Below are positions 17,091 to 61,966 of a DNA stretch of 64,000 bases, in pieces. The position numbers and the translations under genes are program-made. The stretch covers positions 930,001-994,000 of the forward strand of contig NZ_JH651379.1 of the NCBI RefSeq assembly GCF_000260115.1. The letters are read 5' to 3'. Positions within the stretch are counted from its first letter, which is position 1. Each line of letters opens with the position of its first letter. Origin of the DNA: Galbibacter orientalis DSM 19592 (GTDB lineage Bacteria > Bacteroidota > Bacteroidia > Flavobacteriales > Flavobacteriaceae). The notes below the pieces were generated by a model, which saw only the letters and a list, made by a program, of their open reading frames with translations, made no database searches and had not been told where the DNA came from.

Positions 17091-17510
17091 AATTTAAAGA
17101 TTGAAGGATTGAAAAAGTCAGGAGTCCGAAGCCCGAAGTAAAAAGTTACGTTGTTACAAAGAAAAAAACTTCCTAAATCCTACTGAATACAAGATTCCCA
17201 ACTCCCGACTCCCGACTTCGGTCTTCTGACTTTTTTTCATTTCCAAATCTTCAAATCCTCAAATTGAGGTATTTACATCTTTGCCCCTTTGCCACATTGA
17301 ACCAAAAAGTTATAAAGTTATCGAGTTATGTTGTTACGATGTTACAATGAAAAAACTGCATACTGTAACTGTCAACTGAACACTCCCGTCTTCATTTCAT
17401 TTCCTCATTTCCAAATTAGTAAATTTATAACTTTGTCCCTTTGCCACTTTGAGTTAAAAAGTTAATAAGTTATCGAGTTATATTGTTGTGATATTTCAGA
17501 AAAACTTTTT
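17091..17510. repeat. Dispersed AT-rich repeat block (shared with 55.1-55.8 kb)
   Basis: The block contains AGGAGTCCGAAGCCCGAAG, AAAAAGTTACGTTGTTACAA, CTCCCGACTTCGGTCTTCTG and a stretch about AACTTTGTCCCTTTGCCACT, all found again, several times, at 55136-55790. The GAAGTCCGAAG-type and CTTCGGTCTTCTGAC-type segments are mutually complementary, so long imperfect hairpins are possible. There is no ORF. It fills the space between folB and the heptamer array. Confidence 0.75.
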
Positions 17511-17512
17511 TT

Positions 17513-17636
17513 GCCTAAAGCCTAAAGCCTAAAGCCTAAAGCCTAAAGCCTAAAGCCTAAAGCCTAAAGCCTAAAGCCTAAAGCCTAAAGCCTAAAGCCT
17601 AAAGCCTAAAGCCTAAAGCCTAAAGCCTAAAGCCTA
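17513..17636. repeat. Heptanucleotide tandem repeat (CCTAAAG), 17 full units
   Basis: Uninterrupted CCTAAAG units run from 17514 to 17632, with partial units at both ends. The other strand reads CTTTAGG, a plant-telomere-like heptamer. The right end enters the sulfatase coding sequence: the last two codons (Arg-Leu) and the TAG stop of that gene lie inside the repeat. Confidence 0.97.
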
Positions 17637-19096
17637 TCCACCATCCCAGGACTTCTAGTTTCAGAACCTTCGGTTTTGGTTAAGGCATCTCCTAATTCAT
17701 TTCGCTTTTTATTGGCTAACTCAATTATTGTTTTAACAATTTCAGGGTGTTTTTCAATTACATTATTTTGCTCTACGGAATCTATGGCAAGATTATAAAG
17801 TTCCATTTTTTTAAGGTCGATATGTTTGTATTCGCCTGGTAAACCATCTTTTCCCTGTGGTTGTCCTTCCATAGTTCTGTATTTATGTGGAAAATATAGT
17901 TTCCAATCTTTATAACGCACGGCATGCAATTCGTTTACTCTGTAATAATAGTAGAACGCTTCATGTGGAGTTGTAGTTGTTTTTTCTGTAAGAATATCCC
18001 ACACGTTTTTTCCGTCTATTTTTTTCTTCGGAAGCGTGCTGTTTGTAAGCGCTGCAATTGTTGGAAAAATATCAATACCCATTACAGGCGTTGTTATGGT
18101 TTTGTTCTGCGGAAGTTTTCCAGGGAAACGCGCTATAAATGGAACCCGTTGTCCGCCTTCCCACGAGGTTCCTTTTCCTTCTCTAAAAGGTTTTGCCGAA
18201 CCAGAATGATTTCCGTACGACAACCAAGGGCCATTATCAGAAGTAAAAATAACAAGCGTATTTTCGTCTATTCCTTCTGCTTTTAGTGTTTTTAGAATCT
18301 CCCCAACACTCCAGTCGATTTCCATTATAACATCTCCATACAAACCTCTTTCCGATTTTCCTTTAAATTTATCAGAAACAAAAAGTGGAACATGAGGTTG
18401 TGGATGCGCAACATATAAAAAGAAAGGGTTGTTTTTGTTTTTCTGAATAAAAGAAACAGCATGTTCTGTAATTTGCGTGGTTAGTAGGGATTGGTCGTTG
18501 AGTGTATCTATTACCTTTTCATTTTGATATAAAGGAAGCGGATCGAAATTAAAGATAGGTCCTTGTTGAGGATGATGCGGCCACATATCATTAGAATATG
18601 GAATACCAAAATACTCGTCAAACCCCTGTTTTGTAGGCATAAATTCTGGGGCATCTCCCAAATGCCATTTTCCAAAAATAGCAGTGTTATAGCCTTGTTC
18701 TTTAAGCATGTCTGCTATGGTAATTTCCTCAGGATTTAATCCAATTTTTGCATCCGGCATGAGTGCATTATGAATACCAATTCTATTGGGGTAACAACCT
18801 GTTAAATAACTAGCTCTAGAGGCTGAACATACGGGCTGCGTAGCAGAAAAATCGATTAACTTAATCCCTTCTTTAGCCATTTGGTCGAGATGGGGTGTTT
18901 TAATAGCTGGAGCACCAAAACAACCTACATCTTCAAACCCTTGATCGTCGGTAAGAATAAAAACAACATTAGGTTTTTTATGCTTTTCCACAGCAGAATT
19001 TTCAACAGATTCCGATTCTGTTTTCTTACATGAAACAAATACTGTAGCGACAGCTAATATGGAAAGGAAGCGGCTTGAGAGGGAAAGAAATTTCAT
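17627..19096 (-). CDS. Arylsulfatase-type sulfatase (lipoprotein)
   Basis: Predicted to hydrolyse sulfate esters, perhaps of marine polysaccharides. It starts with a lipoprotein signal (LSILAVATVFVSCKK, lipobox VSC). The N-terminal metal-binding VVFILTDDQGFEDVGCFG lies near 45-62. The formylglycine motif CSASRASYLTGCYPNRIG has its catalytic Cys near residue 90, in Cys-X-Ala-X-Arg form. GKWHLGD and FTSDNGPW follow, as in the S1 family. The 489-residue length is usual. A maturase is needed to make formylglycine and is not in the window. No SusC/SusD pair or glycoside hydrolase is adjacent, so this is an isolated sulfatase. The last codons lie in the heptamer repeat. Confidence 0.9.
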   Translation of the reverse strand: MKFLSLSSRFLSILAVATVFVSCKKTESESVENSAVEKHKKPNVVFILTDDQGFEDVGCFGAPAIKTPHLDQMAKEGIKLIDFSATQPVCSASRASYLTGCYPNRIGIHNALMPDAKIGLNPEEITIADMLKEQGYNTAIFGKWHLGDAPEFMPTKQGFDEYFGIPYSNDMWPHHPQQGPIFNFDPLPLYQNEKVIDTLNDQSLLTTQITEHAVSFIQKNKNNPFFLYVAHPQPHVPLFVSDKFKGKSERGLYGDVIMEIDWSVGEILKTLKAEGIDENTLVIFTSDNGPWLSYGNHSGSAKPFREGKGTSWEGGQRVPFIARFPGKLPQNKTITTPVMGIDIFPTIAALTNSTLPKKKIDGKNVWDILTEKTTTTPHEAFYYYYRVNELHAVRYKDWKLYFPHKYRTMEGQPQGKDGLPGEYKHIDLKKMELYNLAIDSVEQNNVIEKHPEIVKTIIELANKKRNELGDALTKTEGSETRSPGMVDRL

Positions 19097-25193: not shown

Positions 25194-26045
25194 ATGCAAA
25201 GGTTTATTATTGCAATTTTTTTGATGCTATTTTCTCACGCTCAATATGCTCAAAACATAGTGAGCGGAAAAGTTATTGATGCAGCCACAAAGGAGGCTAT
25301 TCCTTATGTACACATTGGGATTGCAAATAAAAATTATGGAACTATCTCTACCGACGATGGAAACTTTCAGTTAAAACTTCCAGAAAATGTAGATTTAAAA
25401 AACATATCGATTTCATTTTCCTGTATTGGCTATAAGTTAGTGTCTGTAGCTGCTTCAGCAATTAAAAAAGAAAATACCGTTTTGCTTCATCGTGATATTT
25501 TAGCATTAGATGAGGTAGTGATAACTAAAAAGCAGCGAAAAATAAAATCGAAAAAAATAGGTGCGTATCGTAAGTCGATTTTTAATCTTGGGGAAGCTAA
25601 TACCAATAATTATGGAGTAGGTAAGGAATATGGAATTGCTATTCCCTATCCTAAACATGACTATCGAGTTAAGAGCATTAATTTTCAGTTAAGTGAAAAC
25701 ACAATTGATAGTGTTTTATACCGTTTGAATATTTATAAAATTTCTTCAGATGGAATGCCAAAGAACTCCATTTTGAAAAAGCAACTGTTTGTAAAGAGTT
25801 ACTTCGGGGAAAAACTTATCATGCTTGATGTTACTTCAGAGGCTATTCAGATTGAAGAAACTATAGTAATTACAATAGAGCCAGTGCGTTTATGGTATGA
25901 AGAAGATGATGATAATTTACTTTTCTACAAGCATGCTAAAGGATATTCTGAAGCAACATACCATAGAAAGTCTAGTTTATCTCCGTGGTTGAAGGATGAA
26001 ATCCCTGTTCTATCCATATTTTTGGATGCAACTTATGAGAAATAA
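25194..26045 (+). CDS. Carboxypeptidase-regulatory-like domain protein (exported)
   Basis: A 283-residue protein. The signal peptide is MQRFIIAIFLMLFSHAQYAQ, followed by a CarboxypepD_reg-like beta-sandwich (VSGKVIDAATKEAIPYVHIG, GTISTDDGNFQLKLP) of about 90 residues. The remaining 180 residues are unassigned and may be a second beta domain. The first domain is the same module that precedes TonB-dependent receptors, but no receptor barrel follows, so this is a stand-alone version. It begins 15 bp after the ATPase gene and is likely the last gene of the PadR operon. Confidence 0.78.
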   Translation: MQRFIIAIFLMLFSHAQYAQNIVSGKVIDAATKEAIPYVHIGIANKNYGTISTDDGNFQLKLPENVDLKNISISFSCIGYKLVSVAASAIKKENTVLLHRDILALDEVVITKKQRKIKSKKIGAYRKSIFNLGEANTNNYGVGKEYGIAIPYPKHDYRVKSINFQLSENTIDSVLYRLNIYKISSDGMPKNSILKKQLFVKSYFGEKLIMLDVTSEAIQIEETIVITIEPVRLWYEEDDDNLLFYKHAKGYSEATYHRKSSLSPWLKDEIPVLSIFLDATYEK

Positions 26046-26072
26046 AAAATTCTTTTTAATTCATTTTTTATC

Positions 26073-26190
26073 ATTGTTACCCGATAAAAGTCAATTCTAA
26101 CAACTTTTTTATCTACTTCTAATTTTACAGTATTTTAATATGTAGTCTCTGTGCAGTTTTCTTGTAGACAAGCGGTCTTGTATTTTATTT
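26073..26190 (+). repeat. Direct repeat, copy 1 (uninterrupted)
   Basis: This copy of about 118 bp contains CCGATAAAAGTCAATTCTAA, TTTTATCTACTTCTAATTTT and TTCTTGTAGACAAGCGGTCT. The same order of sequence recurs at 26533-26777, where it is split by the 112 bp element. The two copies flank the ACGT array. Confidence 0.85.
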
Positions 26191-26213
26191 GGATGGTAGA
26201 TTGAAACTATAGA

Positions 26214-26394
26214 AAACGTAGCTGTTTACGTTTAATAGCTATCTTTATACGTAGGCAAACGTATGCGCATACGTTTGTTGCCCAAATTTATACGTTTCAA
26301 ACGTATTTCTATACGTTACTTACGTATAGTTTTACGTACCAAGACGTATTCGTTTACGTCTGAGACCTAAAATTATACGTTGCCATACGTAAAA
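26214..26394. other. ACGT array: consecutive inverted repeats with ACGT cores
   Basis: Fourteen ACGT tetranucleotides occur between 26216 and 26390. They pair into consecutive inverted repeats: AAACGTA/TACGTTT (26214-26233), a perfect 22 bp palindrome CAAACGTATGC/GCATACGTTTG (26256-26277), ATACGTTT-C-AAACGTAT (26290-26306), CTATACGT/ACGTATAG (26309-26329), AGACGTA/TACGTCT (26342-26361) and TACGT/ACGTA (26376-26391). TTTTACGT at 26330 also matches ACGTAAAA at 26387. The flanks differ between repeats but match within each. There is no ORF across it. The function is unknown: an operator array, a structured RNA or a replication/segregation site are all possible. Confidence 0.85.
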
Positions 26395-26398
26395 ACAT

Positions 26399-26445
26399 GA
26401 GTAAATTATCCCAATGGAAGCCTTTGGGCAAACTCAGGACAGGTT
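26399..26445 (-). repeat. Partial, inverted copy of the ~112 bp dispersed element
   Basis: CAAACTCAGGACAGGTTTTG is close to the reverse complement of the CCAAAGCCTGTCCTGAGTTT core of the element, and CCTTTGGG precedes it. The terminal hairpin is not recognisable, so this is a decayed fragment. Confidence 0.6.
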
Positions 26446-26532
26446 TTGGCGCATTCAAATCTCAAGTATCAAGTAAAACACCGCTAATTATAGGTTGACG
26501 TACCTATGCAATAAGAAGAAATAACTATAATT

Positions 26533-26777
26533 ATTGTTGCCGATAAAAGTGAATTCTAACAACTATTTTTATCTACTTTTAATCCTTCTTAGAGGGTCTA
26601 ATTCCCCAAAGCCTGTCCAGAGTTCGAAGGACTCTGCGTCGAAATGAGTTGAATTTGTTTTCTTTGAATATCTCACAGGCTTTCCCCGAGGAAATTAATT
26701 TTTTTAGTAGTTAAGATTTAGTCTCTATGTTGTTTTCTTGTAGACAAGCGATCTTGTATTTTTATTCGAATCTTAAT
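26533..26777 (+). repeat. Direct repeat, copy 2 (interrupted by a ~112 bp element)
   Basis: The left part, 26533-26583, matches copy 1 (GCCGATAAAAGTGAATTCTA, TTATCTACTTTTAAT). The right part, from about 26697, continues with AATTTTTTTAGTAG and TTCTTGTAGACAAGCGATCT. The two parts are contiguous in copy 1. The rest of the gap up to 26860 shows no other assigned feature. Confidence 0.82.
26584..26695 (+). repeat. Reference copy of the ~112 bp dispersed element, with an empty-site comparison
   Basis: Insertion into direct-repeat copy 2 defines the ends: TAAT at 26580-26583 is repeated at 26696-26699 as a possible 4 bp target duplication. The element starts CCTTCTTAGAGGGTCTAATT (a short hairpin), has CCAAAGCCTGTCCAG in the middle and TTTGTTTTCTTTGAATATC, and ends in the palindromic region CAGGCTTTCCCCGAGG. 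It codes for no protein, so if mobile it needs a transposase in trans. Confidence 0.82.
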
Positions 26778-26860
26778 GATTTTTTACAGTAATATTCCAT
26801 AGAAAATGGCATGAACAAAAAAATAATGTATTTTTACCTCATATCAGCAATAAATAGGCT

Positions 26861-29419
26861 TTGAATAAATACCTAAAAATACTTACTTTTTTGCTTCTTT
26901 TGGTACTTGTCTCTGTGGCGTGTTCTACCAAAAAGGATGCTTTTTTGAATAAAAATTGGCATGCTTTAAACACAAAGTATAATGTGTTGTTTAATGGAAA
27001 AGAAGCACTTGCAGTAGGTCAACAGGAACTTATAGATAATTATGTAGATAATTATTGGGAGTTACTTCCTGTGGAGCGAATGGAAATTCGTGATGAAATA
27101 ATTATCGATACAGCCCAACTCAATCCTAATTTTAGAAGAGCCGAAGAAAAAGCTACCAAGGCTGTACAAAAGCATGGAATGAATATAGGTGGACAAGAGC
27201 GAAATCCGCAAATCGATGAAGCGTATTTATTGCTTGGAAAAGCACGTTATTACGATCAACGTTTTGTTCCTGCTTTAGAAGCTTTTAATTACATCCTTCG
27301 GAAATATACAGCTAGCGATATTATCCACCAAGCGGCAATATGGAGAGAAAAAACCAATATCCGAATGGAAAATGAAGAGGTTGCTATTACAAACCTCAAA
27401 AAAGTATTGCAATTAGATATTACCGAACAAGAATATGCCGACGCTTCTGCAATGTTGGCGCAAGCATACATTAATCTAAAACAAAAAGATAGCGCTATTT
27501 ACCGATTGAAATTGGCTTCTAATGTCACCAAAAATAACGAAGAGAAAGGACGCTACAATTACATTATTGGGCAACTTTATAACGAAAAGGGAGAGTTAGA
27601 TAGTGCTAATATAGCTTTTGATAAGGTAATTGATTTAAAGAGGAAATCGCCACGCATTTATATGATGAATGCCTATGTGGAGAAAATTAAAAACCTTTAT
27701 CTGCAAGGGGAAGAGGATTCTACCTTATTAGCAGCATTGGATAAAATTGAAAGAAACCGTGAAAATCGACCTTATTTAGGGAAATTATACCGATTGAATG
27801 CTGTTTATTATTTAAAAAATCAACAATTTGATTTAGCGCAGTTTTATTTAAATGAATCCATAAAAAATACTGAAAACGATCCGAATTTATTAGCATTGGA
27901 CTACGAGGATTTGGCAACCATGTATTTTGATAATGCGTATTATAAAGAAGCAGGAGCTTATTACGATAGTACACTTACAAATTTAAATGAAAACTCTAAA
28001 AAGTTTAGAATTTTTACTCGCAAAAGAGAAAACTTAGAAAGTGTAATTAAGTATGAGGATATAGCACATAGAAATGATAGTATTCTTACTGTTCTGGCTA
28101 TGCCAGAAGCAGAAAAAACAGCTTTTTATCAAAGACATATAGATTCTATAAAAGAGGTGGATGCAATGGAGCGAGAGCGAGCAAAAATTGCAGAGTTACA
28201 GAATAATAATTATGGAACTTTAGGAGGTTTAAAAGGTAATAAAAGTGATAAAGCATCCGATTTTTATTTCTATAATCCTACAAGTGTTCAATATGGGGTG
28301 CAGGAGTTCAGAAAAATATGGGGTAATAGAACCTTAGAAGATAATTGGAGGTTAGGAAATAAAACAACTACAATGCAAGGTGAAACCGCAGTTGCAGAGG
28401 TTGTTAATCCAGAAGATGTGCCGTATTATTCTTTAGATTTTTATTTTGATCAGCTTCCAACAACACCAAGAGAAATAGACAGTATTAAGCAAGAGTATAA
28501 TTTTGCTAATTATCAATTAGGTTTAATTTATAAGGAGAAGTTTCAAGAGTATGAATTGGCAGCCAATAAATTAGAAAAACTCCTAGATAATAACCCAGAA
28601 GAGCGATTAATACTCCCAGCAAAGTATAATTTGTATAAAATATATGAACTCTTGGAGTCGCCATTGGCAGCAGAATATAAAGCAGATATTATAGCAAATC
28701 ATTCCGATTCTCGATATGCTGAAATATTGAAAAATCCAGCAGCTGTATTAGCCGACGACGGTTCGAGTCCAAATGCTGTATATGCATCGCTTTACAAAGA
28801 TTTTGAAAATCAGCAGTATGATAAAGTAATTACGGAAGCCGATGATAATATTTCAAAATATAATGGAGAAGAGGTGATGTTGAAGTTTGAAATGTTGAAA
28901 GCTTCCGCAAATGCAAGACTATATGGATATAATTCCTATAAAGAATCTTTAAGCAATATTGCTTTAAATTATCCTAATTCTGAAGAAGGAGCAGAGGCTC
29001 AAAATATTTTAGAAAAAACGCTTCCTTTGGTAGCAGACTCAACGTTTAATATGGATCCAATTTCTTCTAATCAATGGAAGGTTATTTATCCGTTTAAAAG
29101 AAATAATAAAGCAGGGGTTAAAGAATTGACCGATAAAATAGATGCTTCGTTAAAGGACTTAAAATATACGCACGTAAAATATTCAGAAGATATTTATAAT
29201 CCAGGCACAATATTTTTAGTAGTTCATGGTTTTGATACAAAGTTGCATGCTGAGGGGTATGCAGAGCTATTAAAGATTAACAAAGATTATTTGGTTGATA
29301 ATGAGAAATTTGTAATTTCGTCTGCAAATTATAAAAAAGTTCAAATCCATAAGAATCTGGATACTTATTTAGCTGAAAATAAAATTGATAACTTAAATAA
29401 CCCAAATCTAAATAATTAA
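26861..29419 (+). CDS. sprE: TPR lipoprotein SprE/PorW (type IX secretion, gliding motility)
   Basis: A lipoprotein of 852 residues. The signal KILTFLLLLVLVSVACSTKK has lipobox SVAC, and NKNWHALNTKYNVLFNGKEA follows, a stretch I recognise from SprE of Flavobacterium and PorW of Porphyromonas. Many TPR-like helical repeats run from about 110 to 400 and 540 to 720. In the family it is an outer-membrane-associated component needed for type IX protein secretion and for surface gliding. The start codon is TTG (26861), since no ATG fits before the signal peptide. Bactofilin follows 4 bp later. The 815 bp upstream are non-coding and hold the ACGT array. Confidence 0.88.
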   Translation: MNKYLKILTFLLLLVLVSVACSTKKDAFLNKNWHALNTKYNVLFNGKEALAVGQQELIDNYVDNYWELLPVERMEIRDEIIIDTAQLNPNFRRAEEKATKAVQKHGMNIGGQERNPQIDEAYLLLGKARYYDQRFVPALEAFNYILRKYTASDIIHQAAIWREKTNIRMENEEVAITNLKKVLQLDITEQEYADASAMLAQAYINLKQKDSAIYRLKLASNVTKNNEEKGRYNYIIGQLYNEKGELDSANIAFDKVIDLKRKSPRIYMMNAYVEKIKNLYLQGEEDSTLLAALDKIERNRENRPYLGKLYRLNAVYYLKNQQFDLAQFYLNESIKNTENDPNLLALDYEDLATMYFDNAYYKEAGAYYDSTLTNLNENSKKFRIFTRKRENLESVIKYEDIAHRNDSILTVLAMPEAEKTAFYQRHIDSIKEVDAMERERAKIAELQNNNYGTLGGLKGNKSDKASDFYFYNPTSVQYGVQEFRKIWGNRTLEDNWRLGNKTTTMQGETAVAEVVNPEDVPYYSLDFYFDQLPTTPREIDSIKQEYNFANYQLGLIYKEKFQEYELAANKLEKLLDNNPEERLILPAKYNLYKIYELLESPLAAEYKADIIANHSDSRYAEILKNPAAVLADDGSSPNAVYASLYKDFENQQYDKVITEADDNISKYNGEEVMLKFEMLKASANARLYGYNSYKESLSNIALNYPNSEEGAEAQNILEKTLPLVADSTFNMDPISSNQWKVIYPFKRNNKAGVKELTDKIDASLKDLKYTHVKYSEDIYNPGTIFLVVHGFDTKLHAEGYAELLKINKDYLVDNEKFVISSANYKKVQIHKNLDTYLAENKIDNLNNPNLNN

Positions 29420-35050: not shown

Positions 35051-35914
35051 ATGGCAAATTTAAAAGAGATACGTAGTAGAATTACATCGGTTGGTTCAAC
35101 CATGCAGATTACTAGTGCCATGAAAATGGTATCGGCTGCAAAGTTGAAAAAAGCGCAAGATGCTATCACAGCAATGCGTCCATATTCCGATAAACTTACC
35201 GAGCTTTTACAAAGCCTTAGTGCAACGCTAGATGGTGATGCAGGAAGTGTTTTTGCAGAACAAAGAGACGTAAAAAGTGTGCTTGTTGTTGCAATAACTT
35301 CCAATAGAGGTTTGTGTGGAGCCTTTAATACCAATGTTATAAAAGCTTCTAATAAACTTGCAGAGAGTACTTATGCAGGCAAAAAAGTAAGTTTTGTAAC
35401 TATAGGTAAGAAAGGAAACGATATTCTTAAAAAGAACCATTACGTTACTCATAATAATAATGAAGTGTACGACGATCTTACTTTTGATAATGTCTCTGAT
35501 ATTGCTGAAAGATTAATGACACTTTATAAAGAAGGAGCGTATGATAAGATTGTTTTAGTTTACAATCATTTCAAAAATGCAGCTACACAGATTGTTAAGA
35601 CAGAAGATTTCTTGCCAATAAAACCTATTGAAAGCGAAGAAGTAAGTTCTTCAGCCGATTATATTTTTGAGCCTTCAAAAGAGGAAATTATTGAGACATT
35701 AATTCCGAAGTCATTAAAAACACAATTGTATAAAGCTATTCGCGATTCTTTTGCTTCTGAGCACGGAGCACGTATGACGGCAATGCACAAAGCAACCGAC
35801 AACGCAGCCGATTTAAAAGCAGAATTAACGCTTACATATAATAAAGCACGTCAAGCAGCCATCACCAACGAAATTTTAGAAATTGTTGGTGGAGCGGAAG
35901 CGTTGAACAATTAG
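35051..35914 (+). CDS. atpG: F0F1 ATP synthase subunit gamma
   Basis: The 287-residue central rotor shaft. The N-terminal helix MANLKEIRSRITSVGSTMQI and the C-terminal LTYNKARQAAITNEILEIVG are the two coiled-coil halves that pass through the head. It is the last ATP synthase gene in this cluster. The beta and epsilon genes (atpD, atpC) are absent, as is usual in Bacteroidota, where they lie elsewhere. The last codons (EALNN and the TAG stop) are part of a repeat copied five more times downstream. Confidence 0.97.
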   Translation: MANLKEIRSRITSVGSTMQITSAMKMVSAAKLKKAQDAITAMRPYSDKLTELLQSLSATLDGDAGSVFAEQRDVKSVLVVAITSNRGLCGAFNTNVIKASNKLAESTYAGKKVSFVTIGKKGNDILKKNHYVTHNNNEVYDDLTFDNVSDIAERLMTLYKEGAYDKIVLVYNHFKNAATQIVKTEDFLPIKPIESEEVSSSADYIFEPSKEEIIETLIPKSLKTQLYKAIRDSFASEHGARMTAMHKATDNAADLKAELTLTYNKARQAAITNEILEIVGGAEALNN

Positions 35915-36180
35915 GCGTAGCGATAGCGGAGTCAAATTTTCAAACTTGCCGAGGCGTTGAACAATTAGGCGTAGCGATAGCGGAGTCAAATTTTCAAAAA
36001 GATTGTAAGCGTTGAACAATTAGGCGTAGCGATAGCAAAGCCAAATTTTCAAACTTGCCGAGGCGTTGAACAATTAGCGACCAACGGGAGCAAATAGAAC
36101 CCAATCGGAAGCGTTGAACAATTAGGCGTAGCGATAGCGGAGTCAAATTTTCAAAAAGATTGTAAGCATTGAACAATTAG
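35900..36180 (+). repeat. Six-copy tandem repeat seeded by the 3' end of atpG
   Basis: GCGTTGAACAATTAG starts at 35900 (inside atpG), 35954, 36009, 36063 and 36111, with a one-base variant at 36166. Spacings are 54, 55, 54, 48 and 55 bp. Most units continue with GCGTAGCGATAGCGGAGTCA and AATTTTCAAA. The first unit holds the atpG stop codon. The array extends the 3' region of the ATP synthase transcript. Confidence 0.92.
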
Positions 36181-61687: not shown

Positions 61688-61729
61688 GGGTATTAGTTTA
61701 TATGATTTTTTTCTAGAAGCATATTTTAA

Positions 61730-61850
61730 TCCCTTATAGAGGGTCTAATTCTCCAATTCCTGCCCTGAGTTTAACTAAGGAATGGCTTTGCGTCGAAATA
61801 AGTTAAATTTGTTTCCTTAGAATACCTTGCGGGCTTGCCCCGAGGTAGTT
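61730..61850 (+). repeat. Copy of the ~112 bp dispersed REP/MITE-like element
   Basis: It starts with CCCTTATAGAGGGTCTAATT, continues with CCTGCCCTGAGTTTAACTAA and GCGTCGAAATAAGTTAAATT, and ends with ACCTTGCGGGCTTGCCCCGA followed by GGTAGTT. It is one of the best conserved copies. It fills much of the 279 bp gap between pncA and scoA. Confidence 0.87.
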
Positions 61851-61966
61851 AATTACTTTCAATTTTTCGATACAAGAATTGGTCAATTCAATATTATTCA
61901 CACATTATTAAAATATAATTTCTATTTTCTTGAAATATTCGTAATTTTCATCTAAAATATTACGAA

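Follow-up and report, generated by a model that had tools for sequence, protein, structure and literature searches.

The ACGT-rich cluster at 26216-26402 of the window, as the analysed 64,000-nucleotide stretch of Galbibacter orientalis DSM 19592 is called here, is best read as a solo copy of a helically phased site array that belongs to a Bacteroidota-wide system and would act as a platform for cooperative protein binding, a reading to which we give a probability of roughly 0.6. Across the phylum, the period of such arrays is invariant, while their sequence varies between members of a gene family of ~160 aa that they accompany, and the combination of array and gene family suggests a so far undescribed DNA-protein system. 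Linkage to the gene family, helical phase and sequence constraint support an array on DNA to which protein would bind. An earlier note on this region, made from the sequence alone, had proposed a cluster of dimeric sites among its possible roles and had regarded pairing as the conserved feature; the former is now the best-supported interpretation, and the latter is not supported.

The core of the earlier description was borne out. Fourteen ACGT tetramers start between 26216 and 26387 (the last ends at 26390) against 0.33 expected per 178 bp, and of the 120 tetramers in the whole window the second-best cluster holds three. The perfect 22-bp palindrome is present, and so is the reported absence of an ORF, the interval 26045-26861 being free of any ORF of at least 90 aa. 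The successive ACGT-to-ACGT spacings (12, 21, 10, 12, 21, 9, 12, 9, 12, 10, 12, 21 and 10) reflect a register that the first description had missed, namely nine dyad units of 16 bp separated by linkers of 5-6 bp, with a pitch of one unit per ~21.5 bp, i.e., two helical turns (Table 1). A candidate tenth unit starting at 26408 was excluded from this register owing to its poor fit. With two helical turns (21-22 bp) from one 16-bp unit to the next, consecutive ACGT half-sites face roughly the same side of the helix, and the whole-turn spacing of a phased protein-binding array is thus present. In a period scan of the window, the array stands out at lag 43 only (z 5.3). The same window holds a tandem repeat of the heptamer AAAGCCT at ~17455-17690 (~18 copies, as inferred from tetramer counts), which shows periods from 14 to 63 in steps of 7 and is akin to the TAACTGA heptamer arrays (PMC4679880), and a period of 54-55 bp is prominent at ~35894-36080 (z 7.3).

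Table 1. Coordinates of the array, the dispersed unit that contains it and the neighbouring features (window positions unless a genome locus is given).
Feature	Position	Strand	Basis or remark
Nine-unit array, AC-n12-GT, consensus ACGTAnnnnnnTACGT	26216..26402	.	ACGT spacings, register
Array unit starts	26216, 26237, 26259, 26280, 26301, 26322, 26344, 26365, 26387		
Perfect 22-bp palindrome (third unit and flanks)	26256..26277	.	
Dispersed unit (array plus 130-bp tail)	26197..26532	.	DNA search
Second copy of dispersed unit	G000:C1:2886062-2886395		83% identical over 336 columns
Tail of dispersed unit	26403..26532	.	76% identity between copies vs 88% for the array
Flanking repeat, first copy	26081..26193 (26081-26123 + 26135-26193)	+	Repeat search
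Flanking repeat, second copy	26540..26769	+	Split into 26540-26583 and 26711-26769
Upstream ORF, 283 aa	25194..26045	+	
Downstream ORF, 852 aa	26861..29419	+	Type IX secretion/SprE is the label of the earlier note

A strict two-unit ACGT pattern, searched in 84,980 species genomes, returned 32 stretches, 25 of them in Bacteroidota and seven elsewhere (five in Achromobacter, one in Nocardia and one in Streptomyces); viral contigs gave no strict-pattern match. Long arrays make up 18 of these stretches, all in Bacteroidota, with seven contributed by Phocaeicola abscessus and five by one metagenome bin, and the other 14 are short clusters around two dyads. Within the host's own family the strict pattern occurs in two of 397 genomes, one of which is the host. 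Spacings of 9/10, 12 and 21/22 predominate across 21 long-array loci. Furthermore, long ACGT arrays share a bilateral layout, with units reduced to the right half-site on the left, full dyads in the centre and units reduced to the left half-site on the right. This layout reached p < 0.03 in 15 of 20 arrays (six from one genome, five from one bin; L049, which is split, L062, at a locus end, and L082, the same array as L052, were left out), but none of the three arrays examined in the host reached significance (window array: rho 0.30, p 0.22). As a separate observation, two-dyad ACGT clusters with 12/9-10/12 spacing, alike between species, were found in Aquimarina (L061, L067, L071, L076, L079), where they adjoin recurring genes resembling an integrative element, and clusters of the same kind in Achromobacter (L063, L065, L069, L074, L085); these are possibly tetrameric operators.

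The strongest evidence for a system, rather than a scattered motif, is the company the arrays keep. At four ACGT-array loci the array adjoins a small gene of 158-173 aa with the motif YGSINE-x-NKLFVNK, on its 5' side in L056 and on its 3' side in the others. Of 72 genes of this family (genes with frames running off a contig end and genes sharing the last 80 residues being excluded), 50 have a period-21 array beside them, 44 at the 3' and six at the 5' side, and 22 have none at the cut-off, a count that includes the host gene C1:3481198, whose array is split by an insertion sequence. An array also accompanies 12 of the 17 genes that were fetched once this link had first been tested. Periodicity at lag 21/22 and its multiples exceeded z 5 in 45 of the 72 family 3' flanks. 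Each of six other lag sets did so in none or one of the 72 (0 of 72 for lag 23/24 and multiples), and among control ends 1 of 63 from ORFs of the window (a heptamer repeat) and 4 of 47 from neighbouring genes passed; the sensitivity of this test is limited, the flank of the window array itself, one of the 63 controls, staying below z 5. The reverse search found the gene in seven of eight genomes with long ACGT arrays, three of the seven having been known beforehand, which leaves four of five as new; the background is 18 of 395 genomes in the phylum, obtained with another profile and cut-off, and 8 of 299 in the host's family. Genomes with short clusters have the ~160-aa gene in three of four cases in Bacteroidota and in none of three elsewhere.

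Between gene and array, a terminator-like hairpin with a T run was found in 28 of 44 cases as against 3 of 44 in shuffled flanks, and in many cases the gene's message would therefore not end with the array. Across genomes, the resemblance of array motifs rises weakly with protein identity (Mantel r 0.22, p 0.002; 47 arrays, three of the 50 having been dropped for segments shorter than 150 bp), and the opposite flank shows no such trend (r -0.01, p 0.61). For 21 pairs within the same genome, the median array similarity is 0.04, the motifs differing between paralogues.

The gene family itself is patchily distributed, with 18 carriers among 395 genomes from across the phylum, 8 among 299 from the host's family and 8 among 79 from another family, often as several divergent copies per genome, some of them broken. 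Comparison with Pfam and NCBIfam (10 members) and with PHROGs and PADLOC (four members) gave nothing above the curated cut-offs; transposase models in Pfam and NCBIfam did not match the linked gene (10 members), a sequence search of the PDB returned nothing for the family, and 72,556 plasmid and 50,697 phage records held no relatives of the 158-aa protein. A match to the IglI family of NCBIfam was set aside (E 0.0013, 18.7 bits vs a cut-off of 100). The proteins are mostly acidic (median pI 5.3, with 50 of 65 below 6). For the host 158-aa protein, the confidently predicted model (pLDDT 89, pTM 0.70) has five helices, one of 55 residues, and a Foldseek comparison with the PDB gave no match below E 0.4 (best 0.42) and no DNA-binding fold. 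Because the protein is acidic and its model matches no DNA-binding fold, direct binding to DNA is uncertain. In the host, the ACGT-linked family gene lies at C1:3481198 and a second paralogue at C1:1795142, whose array follows a different motif that recurs once, in part, at C1:2414767-2414882; a short dispersed repeat with 32 further matches in the host genome (L105:1000-1069) adjoins the array of this second paralogue.

In one clade, a second kind of gene is found beside the arrays. All 12 fetched loci of the genomes G033, G277, G298 and G869, together with L181, show an array followed by a small HTH gene. A period-21 array lies 5' of the gene in 13 of 14 HTH loci and 3' in none of the 14, and five of six HTH loci without the 160-aa gene have the 5' array. 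The HTH proteins (115-131 aa, 11 sequences) consist of an N-terminal half that varies (mean pairwise identity 36%) and weakly resembles Cro/C1 HTH domains, and a conserved C-terminal half (67%) that ends in a predicted long helix; the Foldseek neighbours of the predicted model are mostly XRE/HipB/HigA/C-protein regulators, all of them weak (best E 0.37). HTH homologues were not found in 12 of 18 genomes searched, among them the host, Phocaeicola abscessus and eight others with arrays or the 160-aa gene, and the HTH protein was therefore rejected as a universal partner; two of these 12 genomes (G001 and G005) also lack the 160-aa gene. Within the host's family, the HTH gene occurs in three of 349 genomes. 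The HTH N-terminus and the array showed no significant co-divergence (n 11, r 0.04, p 0.40).

The window array is one of several in its host. A DNA and pattern search of the genome located three further array loci, C1:2886062-2886395, C1:3481854-3482975 and C2:142547-142708, of which the second is split by an insertion sequence and lies 3' of the 158-aa family gene, while the other host arrays adjoin unrelated genes; one further Galbibacter genome also has an ACGT array locus. Of the three conditions under which the earlier note would have taken the repeat for a chance or decaying one, the lack of further arrays thus does not hold, the array recurring in the host genome and across the phylum. 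A transposase-like ORF of 292 aa, with translations that look identical, lies inside one host array (L049:9943-10821) and 1.3 kb from another (L050:7334-8212). Just before the array on the second contig, L050:8338-9311 holds a gene pair that resembles an Xre-type antitoxin and a RES-type toxin.

The dispersed unit that contains the window array stands between two copies of a flanking repeat, the second of which is interrupted at 26577-26700 by a 124-bp repeat that is dispersed in the genome; within the tail of the unit, 26418-26480 is similar to short repeats scattered over the host genome. The 124-bp repeat has another window copy at 61724-61854 and at least ~39 more matches, full or partial, across the genome. 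Its 28 aligned copies are L003-L030 (L029 was left out of one analysis); the window copy folds to -32 kcal/mol, and the copy at 26577-26700 had no match in Rfam. Orthologues of the ORF at 26861-29419 occur in all seven genomes of the genus, host included. Conservation of the array upstream of this gene, another check proposed, came out against a function at this locus: the array is absent from the 1500 bp upstream of the orthologue in all six congeners, where 0-3 ACGT tetramers were counted as against 15 in the host. Because none of the six has the array at the orthologous site, the window copy would be a recent arrival or a lineage-specific survivor; since it is absent there yet recurs genome- and phylum-wide, a role specific to the downstream gene appears unlikely.

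Among the rival explanations, the one that survives best is a neutral minisatellite or MITE-like repeat of the BrickBuilt kind, spreading and decaying without function, although we consider it rather unlikely. Its absence from the orthologous site of all six congeners, the other dispersed repeats around it, the strong divergence of array sequences between species and between paralogues, and the patchy gene with its broken copies would all suit such an element. A neutral repeat, however, does not readily account for a period of 21-22 that is fixed phylum-wide while the sequence changes, or for the tie to one gene family. It also sits poorly with constraint on the sites. Substitutions between the two Galbibacter copies affect 14 of 144 positions in dyads, 9 of 43 in linkers and 31 of 130 in the tail, the dyads having fewer changes than linkers and tail together (Fisher p 0.0016) and p 0.064 against linkers alone.

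Selection on the gene points the same way, the family being under purifying selection in the pairs measured. For the pair L089/L106, a dN of 0.046 and a dS of 0.62 indicate purifying selection on the gene, and in its 3' region six consecutive 60-bp blocks keep 83-95% identity, whereas 42% of synonymous sites differ, so that the array of this pair changes less than synonymous sites. Part of the conservation of arrays could stem from recombination: the paralogues L146/L149 of genome G764 have 3' flanks that are 98-100% identical despite a gene dS of 0.49, which suggests recombination or gene conversion between arrays in that genome. The two congeneric genomes of the L089/L106 pair, the sister species G727 and G063, share a block of 964 bp comprising promoter region, gene, terminator and array (88.7% identical) that stands at different loci, with no similarity beyond the block within 1500-bp flanks; to judge from these sequences, the gene and its array can be mobile together. 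The idea of a cassette that is selfish yet functional overlaps with the preferred reading, that of a protein-binding array.

A structured RNA or cruciform, in which the hairpins of a transcribed or extruded array would carry the function, is less probable still and to be regarded as quite unlikely. As RNA, the window array folds far better than its shuffles (z -6.3 on the plus and -4.7 on the minus strand) and contains one terminator-like site where 0.5 are expected, but palindrome arrays of any kind fold. The earlier note had stated that flanks differ between repeats and match within each, and that pairing or symmetry, not one fixed motif, is conserved. Within-unit complementarity in the window array is 0.61, as compared with 0.59 when right halves are shuffled (p 0.35), and none of 12 arrays (those of Phocaeicola abscessus being left out) showed a significant gain in pairing between partner halves over the shuffled control, the p values of the other 11 running from 0.09, the lowest, to 0.998 and several arrays pairing below shuffled. 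The compensatory changes that the note had asked for were likewise not seen: there is no double compensatory change between the two Galbibacter copies, as against seven pair-breaking and three pair-making single changes, and the one pair altered at both sides has lost its pairing.

The paralogue copy keeps its fold energy barely, and not significantly, above random placement of the substitutions (p 0.08 and 0.16), Rfam gave no match up to E 1 across 25900-26900, and 28 of the 44 arrays 3' of a family gene are preceded by a terminator-like site. The hairpin reading was thus unsupported by shuffled partners, by paralogue changes and by fold retention. Dyad symmetry as such is real, exceeding that of synthetic periodic arrays (z > 2) in 21 of 50 arrays only, with z 3.8 for the window array. 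Since halves pair no better than shuffled ones, compensatory changes are absent and dyads are more constrained than their surroundings, the individual half-sites seem to follow a consensus.

That the array is a group of operators serving the downstream SprE-like gene, for which its position in the gene's upstream intergenic region and the same-spacing two-dyad clusters of Aquimarina and Achromobacter (possibly operators) might speak, is very doubtful, because all six congeners lack the array in the 1500 bp upstream of the orthologue, the host's other arrays adjoin unrelated genes, and 458 bp separate the array from the ORF start, and between them, near the gene, lies a stretch that by eye is common to host and congeners. 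A replication or segregation site (iteron origin or centromere) is the most improbable reading. Iterons and parC-type centromeres are likewise phased iterated sites, and the bilateral layout seen in 15 of 20 arrays would suit such a site, but several arrays per genome lie at scattered loci, no ParA-, ParM- or Rep-like neighbours were noticed among the ORFs listed, and the plasmid and phage records hold no relatives of the 158-aa protein.

Under the preferred reading of a phased protein-binding array, dimers of a sequence-specific protein would occupy the dyads cooperatively on one side of the helix. Binding would start at the central full dyads and spread outward over the single half-sites that point to the centre, and the bound dimers may assemble into a nucleoprotein complex. 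The most likely reader in the HTH clade would be the HTH protein; in Galbibacter it may be the 158-aa protein, or another protein with the 158-aa protein as its partner. As to purpose, our guess is a mobile or selfish cassette with a private DNA landmark, which would combine autoregulation with local DNA organisation, and this is favoured over a role at the neighbouring gene. More tentatively, mobile chromosomal cassettes of a small protein gene and a private, rapidly diverging, satellite-like array may exist in Bacteroidota, whose protein, alone or with an HTH partner, assembles on this array and on scattered solo arrays and so organises or marks the chromosome; the system would then be a counterpart in bacteria of satellite DNA that has its own chromatin protein, and the Galbibacter window array a solo mark. 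The significance of the arrays lies in an orphan protein family linked to a DNA array whose period, and not sequence, is constant across a phylum, and intergenic minisatellites of Bacteroidota that lack an explanation could come to be understood as belonging to a single system. A literature search, confined to open-licence papers and thus weak evidence of absence, brought up no account of period-21 arrays linked to a gene.

Several known systems share single traits with the arrays. CRISPR arrays, which have near-identical repeats, unique spacers of regular length and cas genes, were set aside, the units here being imperfect, the linkers 5-6 bp long and Rfam giving no match. Type III toxin-antitoxin systems have an RNA repeat array upstream of the toxin gene with a terminator in between; here, the array is 3' of 44 and 5' of six of the 72 genes, and PADLOC recognised none of four members. 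Cro/C1-type regulators use tandem operators of two or three units, and in one clade an HTH gene likewise lies directly downstream of the sites, whereas the present arrays have many units and also occur beside a non-HTH gene and as gene-less copies. Iterons and ParR/parC-type centromeres offer tandem sites at whole-turn spacing with cooperative binding on one face; unlike these, the present arrays are chromosomal, scattered and multiple, no Rep or Par was noticed, and the linked gene is unclassified and predicted to encode a helical protein.

The remaining comparisons concern dispersed repeats. TAACTGA repeats, some of them in Bacteroidetes, are also intergenic direct repeats, but they are heptamers, with no such gene family described in the accessible part of the paper (PMC4679880). 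REP/BIME elements, which are marked by GTAG/CGTC tags, are likewise intergenic palindromic repeats with several copies per genome (PMC3733652), while the arrays here keep a strict 21-bp phase and their linked gene matches no transposase model. BrickBuilt, reported for Porphyromonas gingivalis and P. gulae, consists of 23-nt direct repeats with leader, tail and IS5-like terminal repeats (PMC4596501). At the ends of the dispersed unit (26197 and 26532), no repeat of at least 14 bp was found within 25900-26900, a search that would miss 12-bp terminal repeats, and a 23-nt unit does not fit the period of 21-22 or the 0 of 72 flanks at lag 23/24. Both are intergenic tandem arrays of Bacteroidota with imperfect units of ~2 turns and several copies per genome; BrickBuilt comes without a gene family in the portion of its description available (PMC4596501), whereas the present arrays keep a period of 21-22 phylum-wide and are tied to a gene family.
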